Shown in pieces: positions 8,701 to 35,491 of a stretch of DNA of 64,000 bases; the stretch's first letter is position 1; the number at the start of each line of letters is the position of its first letter. A program made the translations under genes and the position numbers. The notes beneath the pieces are model-generated. The model was not told where the DNA came from, ran no database searches, and saw nothing but the letters and a program-made list of their open reading frames with translations. Source of the stretch: Bacteroidota bacterium (lineage in GTDB: Bacteria > Bacteroidota > Ignavibacteria > Palsa-1295); contig JAJPIO010000006.1 in NCBI GenBank assembly GCA_021324735.1, positions 203,667 through 267,666 of the forward strand, written 5' to 3'.

Positions 8701-10485
8701 TGTATTAGGGCGAGAAGAAGCAATTTCTGAAATTGTAGATAACCTATTGGCGGCAGATTGAGACATAACCCATGAAGGTTGGCGCGTCGCAGTATCCGTG
8801 ATTGTGTAGGGTACCGACTGAACGGCTACTAAATAGGTTGTCTTCGTAGGATCAAACGAAAATACGTGCGACCATGAGTTACTACTATAGTTAGAAATAG
8901 AAGCGCTTAGAAGCCAGGGACCATTGCCTGTTTTTGAATAAACTCTAATAGAATCGCCGCTGCCAGTCCCTGTTAGCGTAACTGTGCCGGATGAAAATGC
9001 CGTCGTATCGGTAGAAAGTCCACGGTAGGTTGATGCAGCCGACGGTGTAACTGATGGGGAAACCGTCTGAGGACCGTCCACCCTTACTCTGCCTTGGCCA
9101 CCATTGCCAGCCAGAGAATGTGTATGTATTGATGTTCCACCTGCTACAGTGATCGATGGGAATGAACTTGCAAGTTTTGATTCGAGAATAACACCACCGC
9201 CACTTCCGCAGCCTCCAACAGAACCATGACCAACGCAACCGGAGCCGCCAGTTACTCCGCTTGCACCATTTGAAGAAATGGTCGTTCCAGAAAGCGAAAG
9301 CTTTGAACCGTACAATAGCAATGCCCCACCTCCTCCACCACCCGCCGCTCCGGGTGAAGAGCCGTCGCAAGTACAAAACTCATTACTACCTCCGCCGCCA
9401 CTCCCACCCATCAACGGAATAAGCATTGGATTACCGTTTACGATACCACCTCGCTCCGGCGTATTACCTCGCTCCCCTCGACCGTCCTCCCCAGCCGTCG
9501 CAAAACCACCTCCATTACCGTCACCTTCATGCTTATTATGATCTAATATTCCACCACTGCTGGAAATGAATGGATTACCCGAGCCGCCAAAATATTCACA
9601 TTGCGGTACATCGCTCGGCTCCGTAGGGATTCCATTGAGACCTATTCCACCAGCATTGACATTGCCAACTCCTCCCGTTCCCAGGCCGCCTGTTGCAGGA
9701 CACTTACCAGGCTCCGATTCTCCGGGACTGCCTCCGGTATAACCCGAACCGCCACTATCGGTGGTTGGTCCATCGCCCATACTTCCACCTCCACCACCAG
9801 GTCCAGCAGTTCTGCCGGAAGCATTGACAGAGATGAAAGCGCCAGAGACCAAATGAATTGGACCCTTCGACAAAATATTCGCCGGTAAAAAACCTTGATT
9901 GCCAATTTGAGCTGGATCACAATCGGCTGTCGATATTGTGTAAGTACTGCCTGATAAAATTAAAGAGTCAAAAAGGAGTGCACCTCGCTTTGAGCGAACT
10001 CCCCAAATACCGCCTGCGCCTAACACTCCGCTTAGGGATGTAACAATAGCTGGCGTGGGTCTGACGATAAAGAACGTATCGCTATTCGACGATTGACCAT
10101 TAACGATTACTTTGATCGGCACCCTAAAACCTGAATCGAGTGCACGCCAATCAGACGAATTAGGAATATGACAACTGCTGACAAAAATCTGCGTCGATAT
10201 TAGTCGGCCGTTCCAACTGACTACCACTGGCCCGATCGTTAACTTTGAAGTGTCCAACGGATTGCTACACATCACTCGAACAAAATCACCACTGTTATTT
10301 GCATATAGGCTATCTGGACCAAAAGAGCCAAGCCCATAGTACGGAGCAACGATCTCGACGTACGTGTTCATTTGATTTGTACCAATATCAGGTATGAGGT
10401 ACGAAATGACCGGAGATTGTGCTTTTACCGAAAATATCGGAAAAATAAAAAGAACAACGATGAGACCGAGGGACTTTCTAATCAT
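5713..10485 (-). CDS. Giant secreted protein with Gly-rich domain and choice-of-anchor-D repeats
   Basis: A 1590-residue exported protein. The signal peptide (1-22) ends in VKAQ. Residues 23-220 contain an Ig-like N-terminal region. Residues about 223-470 are extremely glycine-rich with scattered cysteines (GPGGGGGSMGDGP, GAAGGGGGGALLLYG). About 580-1370 hold six to seven repeats of roughly 110 residues whose hallmark is a cysteine, then S/DTTIYLKNTGCDSL and later SIALHIKYHPSS, as in choice-of-anchor-D/ASPM-SPD-2-Hydin folds. A cohesin-like segment follows, then a divergent T9SS-type tail (LPEGLFFARIEDSDGHVARA). Probably a surface adhesin or structural filament; function not known. Encoded just upstream of the Asp-box protein on the same strand. 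Confidence 0.82.
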   Translation of the reverse strand: MIRKSLGLIVVLFIFPIFSVKAQSPVISYLIPDIGTNQMNTYVEIVAPYYGLGSFGPDSLYANNSGDFVRVMCSNPLDTSKLTIGPVVVSWNGRLISTQIFVSSCHIPNSSDWRALDSGFRVPIKVIVNGQSSNSDTFFIVRPTPAIVTSLSGVLGAGGIWGVRSKRGALLFDSLILSGSTYTISTADCDPAQIGNQGFLPANILSKGPIHLVSGAFISVNASGRTAGPGGGGGSMGDGPTTDSGGSGYTGGSPGESEPGKCPATGGLGTGGVGNVNAGGIGLNGIPTEPSDVPQCEYFGGSGNPFISSSGGILDHNKHEGDGNGGGFATAGEDGRGERGNTPERGGIVNGNPMLIPLMGGSGGGGSNEFCTCDGSSPGAAGGGGGGALLLYGSKLSLSGTTISSNGASGVTGGSGCVGHGSVGGCGSGGGVILESKLASSFPSITVAGGTSIHTHSLAGNGGQGRVRVDGPQTVSPSVTPSAASTYRGLSTDTTAFSSGTVTLTGTGSGDSIRVYSKTGNGPWLLSASISNYSSNSWSHVFSFDPTKTTYLVAVQSVPYTITDTATRQPSWVMSQSAANRLSTISEIASSRPNTIGNAFKPISACIDTSVFEYLSIGCSQFRIDSLKIQFDTGGVFFVDPKTQLPHVIDYYGSDSIRIIFHPNGRGGVFGARAHLWGTLLSAGTQYDTVLDLFAISSSSGSLYPSVHPIPFSLTPDCEDGDAYTLLNIGCQLFEVDSVKIENDTSGVFHLDPKQKYPTTISYSKADSIHIIFHPNHRIGGFGARLHIFGKLSAQGSGFDTIISLVAGSVPSVPILYPTANQLQWRSVIECSSGDTVITFTNQGCDTVSVDSLHSLGGRSLFLQSIALPRKVAPNASIQVRVHYTPDALNPDSLTASLFYSSTGFIDSIHVPINAQASPALPSLSSSASRINFGAGYSCDELDTTIYLKNTGCDSLLLTSLLIGAGSYSISPQPALPLVIPKGDSIALHIKYHPSSIVDTQSIFYTSKNGGKTANGKIFLFGTVRTTFLAYSPDSLNMGAVALCSFSDSIVSLHNPGCDTIQITSANIIPAGDVKFSGVTLPITLPPHSDTIIAVHFSSNVQEDITTILILDSYIKGIQQPRIEIPVHASASAPTQSLGLSDTSVRLPSLSFCKSDTLIVRLYNRGCDTLDVAIGDLIGDPDFRALSGSESVRLGPGDSSSVSIVVAPQNKGNRNSAIPIKYWNSQNGNKADTSVSLQAFVTGGSRILSSDIQSVDFGKLTLCSSADTTIILRNEGCDTLSIDSASFDEHFFKMIPSGNFPITIAPDSLYTCHTLALVDTTGHVSKNQANLTFYSNSNPPLSPIPLSFSIDYPAAIGFELVPMTESAKPDTPIYYDVRTIRNLGVYGVNDVSFILRTNQDLLSYTHAESPDLVNEYMTATNGVASYHFAVTGNPIHQEADGRIARLWFIPYVADSTHSSIELDSLRLDPSDPDFERCTAQAFASTDTNFDIINTCGQSSLRKVLESLPITISTYMEGSHLILRVEAEKNFVGHLQVFNVLGTVLSNESLHVTAGVCNYAISANLPEGLFFARIEDSDGHVARAKFINTHP

Positions 10486-10579
10486 AAGCTCAATACGATT
10501 TAGAGTTATGAGACCATAACTCCAAACTTTTACTCGCAGTAAATCGTGCTGGACACGGCAAGCATAATTTATTGTCCTC

Positions 10580-29240: not shown

Positions 29241-29279
29241 AGCCCTCATCCCCAACCCTTCTCCCGCTGGGAGAAGGGC
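29241..29279. repeat. Left REP-like palindrome flanking the DUF559 gene
   Basis: Contains AGCCCTCATCCCCAACC followed by a hairpin, CTTCTCCC-GCT-GGGAGAAG. It is an inverted copy of the element at 29743-29783. Confidence 0.85.
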
Positions 29280-29292
29280 GCAGGACGGAGCC

Positions 29293-29595
29293 TTACTCCT
29301 TAACATCGTCTATTTTGCTTGCTATCTCCTGCAGAACGGCATCTATATTCGTTTCAACTTCTTCATTCCTGAATCGAATGAACCGTATGTTGTGGTTCTC
29401 TATAAGTTTTTGTCGCCACTCATCCTCTTCTCTTTGATTATCGTGAATCGATCCATCTAATTCGATCGCTAATCGAGCTTTATACGAAAAGAAATCGACG
29501 ATCCATTTGCCAATTGGATGTTGTCTGCGAAATTTGTGATCTATGAATCGACGGTTTCGAAGCTCTGTCCACAGTATTTTTTCAGCAGGCGTCAT
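29293..29595 (-). CDS. DUF559 (Vsr-like endonuclease fold) domain protein
   Basis: A 100-residue protein of the DUF559 family, distantly related to Vsr-type very-short-patch repair endonucleases of the PD-(D/E)XK fold. FRRQHPIGKWIVDFFSYKARLAIELDGSIHD and the later RFIRFRNEEVETNIDAVLQEI are the family blocks; D (in VDF) and E-x-D (in IELDG) are the likely metal ligands. It is a stand-alone domain. It sits alone between two inverted copies of a CCCTCATCCCC palindrome and is not embedded in an operon. Its job is unknown; see the finding on the repeats. Confidence 0.85.
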   Translation of the reverse strand: MTPAEKILWTELRNRRFIDHKFRRQHPIGKWIVDFFSYKARLAIELDGSIHDNQREEDEWRQKLIENHNIRFIRFRNEEVETNIDAVLQEIASKIDDVKE

Positions 29596-29742
29596 GGTCT
29601 TTCGTAATTCACGAGCCCGAGAGACGGCTTGCCCTGTTGCACGCTCAGGCGTCCAAATTTTATCCGGAAGTTTTTTTCATAGTACTTGGGAGGAGATAAT
29701 CAAGCGATACAAAAATAAAGCGTCTCAGAGATATTCACAGCT

Positions 29743-29783
29743 CCCCTTCTCCCAGGGGGAGAAGGGGCTGGGGGATGAGGGCT
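29743..29783. repeat. Right REP-like palindrome flanking the DUF559 gene
   Basis: CCCCTTCTCCC-AGG-GGGAGAAGGGG hairpin followed by CTGGGGGATGAGGGCT. It is the inverse complement, with a few changes, of the left copy. Confidence 0.85.
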
Positions 29784-34930: not shown

Positions 34931-35491
34931 TTAATCGAAGCCCTGAAGCTTTGGACTAAGGTATGTCCATCGATGCTCGCGCCAGTGCTTTACGATCCTT
35001 GCCTTGACTGGATTATTCAGGACATACGCAACGGCATAGCCGAAGCGGCCTTTCCTGATAACATGGTCGTAGCCTTCATGTTGCCAAAAGTCGCCGTGCC
35101 GATTTAGAATCTTATTGCACTCTTTGCCAGTCCACCCTTTTAGTTCACGAAGAATATCATACAGCACTCCTTCGGGCGGCAGCTCAATGATCATATGAAC
35201 GTGGTTCGACATGATCGAGTAGGCATGCAATATATACTTGGAGCCATCACGATGGTGGATTGCTTCTGCAACGATCTCAGCAATGCGTTCTTCTGCCAAA
35301 TATCGGGGTCCGGATTGAATCATGTGGAGCAATCGCTCGTATTCGAGAAATTGCCCGGAAAGGAGAAGCTTATTTAGCATTTCCTCATCGCGTGGTAGTG
35401 AACCGGCTAGGCGGAAGGTAAGGAAATATGGCCGATCGTTCGGAAGGTAGTGCGGCAACTTTTGTCGATAATAACCTTTAGGGATGGACAT
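34931..35491 (-). CDS. REP-associated tyrosine transposase (RAYT, Y1_Tnp family)
   Basis: A 186-residue single-strand HUH transposase of the REP-associated type. The HUH metal motif is H97-V-H99 in SIMSNHVHMIIELPP. The conserved FWQHEGYDHVIRK block (135-147) and AYVLNNPVKARIVKHWREHRWT (155-176) are the RAYT signatures; Y141 or Y156 is the likely catalytic tyrosine. The opening YYRQKLPHYLPNDRPYFLTFRL is also typical. It is intact and flanked by inverted REP-like palindromes sharing a GGAACG core. RAYTs are usually domesticated and act on their REPs. Confidence 0.9.
   Translation of the reverse strand: MSIPKGYYRQKLPHYLPNDRPYFLTFRLAGSLPRDEEMLNKLLLSGQFLEYERLLHMIQSGPRYLAEERIAEIVAEAIHHRDGSKYILHAYSIMSNHVHMIIELPPEGVLYDILRELKGWTGKECNKILNRHGDFWQHEGYDHVIRKGRFGYAVAYVLNNPVKARIVKHWREHRWTYLSPKLQGFD

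Follow-up and report, generated by a model that had tools for sequence, protein, structure and literature searches.

What joins a gene for a small DUF559 protein to the two near-identical hairpins that bracket it in opposite orientation? The arrangement lies in a 64-kb stretch of DNA from a bacterium of the phylum Bacteroidota, the whole of which we call the window. A preliminary description, made from the letters alone, likened it to RAYT genes between REPs and proposed that DUF559 proteins might be linked to such palindromes, for instance by recognising or spreading them. Here we examine the unit itself, then its occurrence, evolution and movement in other genomes, and finally what could drive it.

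The DUF559 unit of the window

The DUF559 gene does lie between two inverted hairpins, as seen in the sequence, in a PF04480 match, and with a detector that looks for a homopyrimidine stem of at least 8 bases plus a matching mirror segment. Calling the flanking elements hairpins was correct as far as it went, but they are more than that, since each carries a third, mirror-symmetric segment on its outer side. The features are as follows.

29242..29782: whole putative mobile unit (element, DUF559 gene, element), 541 bp, read from the sequence and the detector
29242..29253, plus strand: left outer "head" or third-strand segment, GCCCTCATCCCC; mirror match to the purine arm 10/10, gap 3
29256..29278: left hairpin, CCCTTCTCCC-GCT-GGGAGAAGGG, from the triplex-hairpin detector
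29293..29595, minus strand: DUF559 nuclease ORF from the first in-frame ATG, 100 aa, PF04480 match
29671..29680, minus strand: ATG followed by seven A, likely the original start codon, one base out of frame
29743..29767: right hairpin, CCCCTTCTCCC-AGG-GGGAGAAGGGG, from the triplex-hairpin detector
29771..29782, plus strand: right outer third-strand segment, GGGGATGAGGGC; mirror match 11/11 over 29771-29781, gap 3
34931-35491, minus strand: Y1_Tnp (RAYT-like) gene, E 1.1e-7

The left element reads CCCTCATCCCC-AA-CCCTTCTCCC-GCT-GGGAGAAGGG at 29243-29278, and the right one, inverted relative to it, reads CCCCTTCTCCC-AGG-GGGAGAAGGGG-CTG-GGGGATGAGGG at 29743-29781. Extended by one base at either side, the ends of the unit form a perfect 12-bp inverted repeat, GCCCTCATCCCC at 29242-29253 and its inverted copy GGGGATGAGGGC at 29771-29782, and we therefore take the unit as 29242-29782. 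Both elements score 1.0 with a gap of 3, as in the architecture of BoxC/PIT/TM repeats, and a detector scan of the 64-kb window finds these two triplex-capable hairpins only; the background in such loci is ~0.02 per kb.

The match of the gene to PF04480 (DUF559) is strong (E 3.7e-31; 107.7 bits against a curated Pfam cut-off of 20.6). Its best start codon, the ATG at 29680-29678 on the minus strand, is off by one base across a run of seven A, so that 29293-29595 is the only intact ATG frame, while the open frame reaches 29676 and was returned as 127 aa by the genome search. The offset is a frameshift, a slippage site or a sequencing error, and this copy may be frameshifted or may start at an internal ATG. 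The DUF559 family belongs to the PD-(D/E)XK-type nucleases and is akin to Vsr (PMC1189080), and its solved relatives are 3HRL, a Neisseria DUF559 protein, and the mobile-intron nuclease 3R3P (I-Bth0305I; E 1.4e-7). Identification of the gene as a Vsr mismatch endonuclease was rejected, as the Pfam scan gave no match to PF03852 and Vsr loci lack such elements. Models of defence systems gave only weak, fold-level matches to DUF559. Relatives appear in just two phage records, a near-absence that argues against a phage-borne role. In the window's phylum, about half of the genomes sampled contain the family.

The genome from which the window comes has three copies of the exact stem type, of which the window's DUF559 gene accounts for two. 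A related stem type is present in nine copies, including two at a second DUF559 gene, and a third DUF559 gene has a hairpin variant of its own. The same genome holds a solitary triplex element inside a 450-aa ORF (L297, C9, 1487-1522), possibly an in-frame solitary insertion, and a DUF559 unit whose reading frame continues across the downstream hairpin and into RNase HI (L074, C16, gene 9645-10538).

The window was also said to contain a true RAYT with its own pair of palindromes. A RAYT-like Y1 transposase gene is indeed there, but the hairpins near it, CGGAACGGCCTCGTTCCG and CAGGGAACGAGCCGTTCCCTG, are unrelated to the elements that flank DUF559.

The flanking elements have the architecture of BoxC/PIT/TM repeats

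The elements beside DUF559 genes consist of a pyrimidine arm, a complementary purine arm and, three bases further out, a segment that mirrors the purine arm (with T allowed over A). This segment fits its own purine arm in 172 of 192 elements, against a mean of 55 when flanks were swapped between loci, and among elements with asymmetric arms the mirror fit beats a direct-repeat fit 91:8. Arm and third segment thus change together. This is the "intrastrand triplex" architecture of the BoxC/PIT/TM repeats, which were described in E. coli in the 1990s and which Holder and co-workers later examined as intrastrand-triplex motifs (PMC4666352). Such motifs occur in more than 260 genomes, with 23 copies in MG1655, and the E. 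coli sequence was shown to form a triplex in vitro; copies vary strongly in presence and absence between E. coli strains and have been linked to genome instability (PMC4666352). The authors of that study, the largest to date, saw no gene for mobility in the neighbourhood of the E. coli copies (PMC4666352). The window elements depart from the exact E. coli consensus, CCCTCNCCCN3-6GGGNGAGGGN3GGGNGAGGG (PMC4666352), in that their stem CCCTTCTCCC is one base longer and their third segment is GGGGATGAGGG. The two kinds of element share the pyrimidine arm, the purine arm, the mirror purine segment and the gap of 3, and both occur alone or paired in inversion and are unstable between strains. The difference is that BoxC/PIT/TM repeats were published as orphans, whereas those studied here bracket a nuclease gene.

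Elements are specifically associated with DUF559 genes

Our first sample joined two sets of DUF559 loci, 40 stand-alone ones of the window's phylum and 80 drawn from a collection of 84,980 species; the latter came from a narrower search alignment and lean to proteins with RRQH and DFYC motifs. An element was counted when it lay within about 300 bp of the gene, and a single definition of triplex-capable was used throughout. At least one element flanks 74 of 100 stand-alone DUF559 genes, compared with 15 of 782 other ORFs in the same loci (OR 146, p ~1e-69), and elements lie on both sides of 37/100 and 0/782, respectively. About a quarter of stand-alone DUF559 genes have no element under this strict definition. 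In a second sample, from gammaproteobacteria, elements accompany 27 of 30 DUF559 genes (21 on both sides), none of 30 genes for Vsr, the closest well-known nuclease family, and none of 30 Y1 transposase genes. The excess of palindromes near DUF559 that the preliminary description had put forward as its check is therefore present in both samples.

The sampled loci span Bacteroidota, Chloroflexota, Cyanobacteriota, several proteobacterial groups, Planctomycetota, Patescibacteria and others, and the DUF559 locus of Neisseria gonorrhoeae has four such elements downstream. A subgroup of DUF559 genes (L036, L092) is flanked by a different and larger palindromic repeat, CCACCTCCGCCAGCGGAGGA, which departs from the triplex rule and itself recurs in the vicinity of the gene.

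The association extends to whole genomes. The published E. coli BoxC pattern was searched in 229 gammaproteobacterial genomes and is found in 35 of the 54 that have DUF559, against 21 of the 175 that do not (OR 13.5, p 1e-13, a statistic that ignores kinship), with means of 10.8 and 1.0 copies. The reversed pattern has zero matches in these 229 genomes. Among gammaproteobacteria, Vsr does not co-occur with BoxC (OR 1.6, p 0.28), and Y1 transposases co-occur with the pattern weakly. BoxC-bearing genomes that lack DUF559 could reflect loss of the gene, incomplete assemblies or another enzyme. Two gammaproteobacterial genomes, G215 and G217, have 30 and 43 BoxC-type copies, and no strong DUF559 match was found in them.

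E. coli has one DUF559 gene, ycjD, and the published TMECO/BoxC copy 9 (1,351,239-1,351,204) sits between ycjD and fabI. The gene is present in 3,362 of 5,426 E. coli genomes. When strains were sampled at an even spread, those with ycjD had 11-22 BoxC-like places (median 15) and those without it 2-12 (median 4), a contrast that follows phylogroups and is thus only supportive. We considered ycjD-less strains as examples of a clean empty site and rejected this, because they hold eefRABC at that position.

Protein and hairpin evolve together

The DUF559 protein is under purifying selection: dN/dS between related copies is 0.04-0.43, and for a copy embedded in LeuRS it is ~0.05. The flanking hairpins follow the phylogeny of the protein and match each other. 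Protein distance correlates with arm distance (Mantel r 0.19; 0/2000 permutations as high), and does so across phyla as well, in the comparison of Bacteroidota with others (r 0.21; 2/2000). In 20 of 48 loci the left and right elements of the gene are identical, where random pairs would be so in 4%. Elements that neighbour each other on the same side mostly form inverted pairs with outer heads, as in REPINs.

These observations bear on the possibility that DUF559 is only a passenger, cargo between two elements that are moved by another enzyme or by host recombination. PD-(D/E)XK nucleases are not transposases, and elements without DUF559 are found both in the same genomes and in genomes that lack the gene, as one would expect of elements with some other engine. 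A passive cassette would not, however, explain why the cargo is always DUF559, with 0/782 other genes bracketed on both sides, why no Y1 transposase or Vsr gene has a flanking element (0/30 each), or why protein and hairpin type co-vary even between phyla. We consider the passenger explanation unlikely.

The unit moves as a whole and inserts in frame within genes

Another genome carries two DUF559 copies whose similarity, 85%, extends precisely from one hairpin to the other and gives way to unrelated sequence beyond them, so what moved was the whole unit. At the hutU-hutI site, four related genomes hold a unit and others hold none (one occupied row, G169, was misaligned and left out of the comparison). 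One genome at this site has kept the hairpin pair but lost the gene between short direct repeats, which gives a gene-less derivative of the unit.

Long DUF559 ORFs look at first like ordinary C-terminal fusions; this reading was rejected, since Pfam shows that most are insertions inside host proteins. In-frame inserts lie between or within domains of LeuRS, MetH, RecG, HrpA, ValRS, HsdM and HsdR, in MetH at three positions, and DUF559 is also fused ahead of HisF and of RNase HI. The inserts in five of these proteins are listed here.

LeuRS: L056, L058, L064-L067 (L056, L066 and L067 recognised by eye, the others by Pfam)
MetH: L062, L063, L115, L129, L171 (L063 and L171 recognised by eye, the others by Pfam)
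RecG: L070, L071 (L071 recognised by eye, L070 by Pfam)
HrpA: L120 (Pfam)
ValRS: L136 (Pfam)

Many in-frame inserts have elements on both sides, and translation through these yields linkers such as PSPSGRGEGE. The hairpins can be free of stop codons when read through, which makes in-frame landing inside genes possible. Of 99 genomes of one genus, ~92 carry leuS without an interruption, whereas in a few an in-frame insert of ~455 bp takes the place of a short loop. Two cyanobacterial plasmid loci (L399, L400) have DUF559 beside pieces of a DUF1156 gene and are perhaps further insertions. An intein was ruled out as an identity for the inserts, because 17 in-frame or fused cases, when scanned with Pfam, have host domains and DUF559 only, and no splicing (Hint) domain around the nuclease. 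No clear target-site duplication was seen at hrpB-mrcB, lldD-trmL or leuS, in comparisons between diverged genomes; at leuS and at hrpB-mrcB of E. coli, a few bases seem to have been replaced.

Uninterrupted relatives at leuS and other coding sites have no element at all, and whole units thus enter element-free sites. This matters for a variant of homing, in which DUF559 would cut gene-less copies of the element and repair by annealing would copy the gene in, making the nuclease a parasite of the repeats and not their engine. It would suit the solved relative 3R3P, a homing endonuclease of a mobile intron, and the frequent identity of the two elements, which is expected if a single site is split. 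But homing of this kind needs an element at the target, contrary to the empty coding sites, and the number of element copies tracks the presence of DUF559. We regard this variant as quite improbable.

The same inserts speak to a purely regulatory role, in which the elements would be terminators or other hairpins that control DUF559 expression and take no part in mobility. The hairpins are close to both ends of the gene, as such a role would have it. Against it, the same elements occur alone elsewhere, their co-varying mirror segment would be superfluous for a terminator, they lie inside ORFs on both sides of in-frame DUF559 domains, and PIT/BoxC elements had neither promoter nor terminator activity in published tests (PMC4666352), all of which leaves a regulatory explanation highly improbable. 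Chance placement of C-rich intergenic hairpins beside an unrelated gene, for which one could cite the few such hairpins elsewhere in the genomes (0.02 per kb), is refuted by the enrichment beside DUF559 and its independent replication.

A proposed mechanism

The DUF559 gene and its two BoxC/PIT/TM-kind, triplex-capable elements probably constitute a minimal mobile unit, with solitary copies as its non-autonomous offspring. In the cycle that we envisage, the elements would fold when single-stranded, for example at replication forks, and the DUF559 protein would recognise its own type of folded element and then nick or cut it. PD-(D/E)XK enzymes by themselves join no strands, and insertion must therefore rely on host repair, which would copy or re-insert the element, either by itself or as a pair with the gene in between. 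Solitary BoxC/TM copies would be to DUF559 what REPs are to RAYTs, and units would sometimes land in frame inside genes and persist there as extra domains.

DUF559 units resemble the REP/REPIN-RAYT system in that short palindromes, often in inverted pairs with outer heads, flank a single small enzyme gene and have solitary copies elsewhere. To this extent the parallel drawn at the outset stands. Enzyme and tag do not follow it: RAYTs are Y1 HUH transposases and DUF559 is of PD-(D/E)XK type, and DUF559 units also insert in frame inside genes. A GTAG or CGTC tag on the palindrome is a trait of RAYT-REP systems (PMC3733652), and neither window hairpin has one beside it. We therefore rejected membership of this system for the DUF559 unit. 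Insertion sequences differ in that DUF559 units contain no transposase gene, only DUF559 between the ends. Vsr-like (EDxHD) homing endonucleases such as 3R3P share with DUF559 a detectable sequence relationship and the logic of a selfish nuclease, but they reside in introns and inteins, and DUF559 has triplex-hairpin ends and no intron or splicing domain. The in-frame units are also reminiscent of Rickettsia palindromic elements, palindromic DNA that lies in frame within protein-coding genes and is translated. To our knowledge, those elements have no nuclease gene of their own and are unrelated in sequence to DUF559 units.

Among 5.4 million open-access papers, the scope of our search, 14 mention DUF559 by name and none connects it with these repeats; subscription papers and preprints lie outside it. 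It seems likely that DUF559 genes with BoxC/TM hairpins form an unrecognised class of mobile elements, spread over many phyla, that would work by a nuclease acting on a triplex-capable fold together with host repair, would give off non-autonomous BoxC copies, and have repeatedly become an in-frame domain of proteins such as LeuRS and MetH. The inserts in essential or conserved enzymes may confuse the annotation of those proteins. The evidence suggests that the DUF559 nuclease is the missing engine that spreads BoxC-type repeats, which gives a candidate enzyme to BoxC/PIT/TM repeats, long known yet unexplained. DUF559, a family of unknown function, would gain a role that can be tested, with ycjD at hand in E. 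coli K-12, and the unit itself is one that survives inside essential genes as a translated domain.
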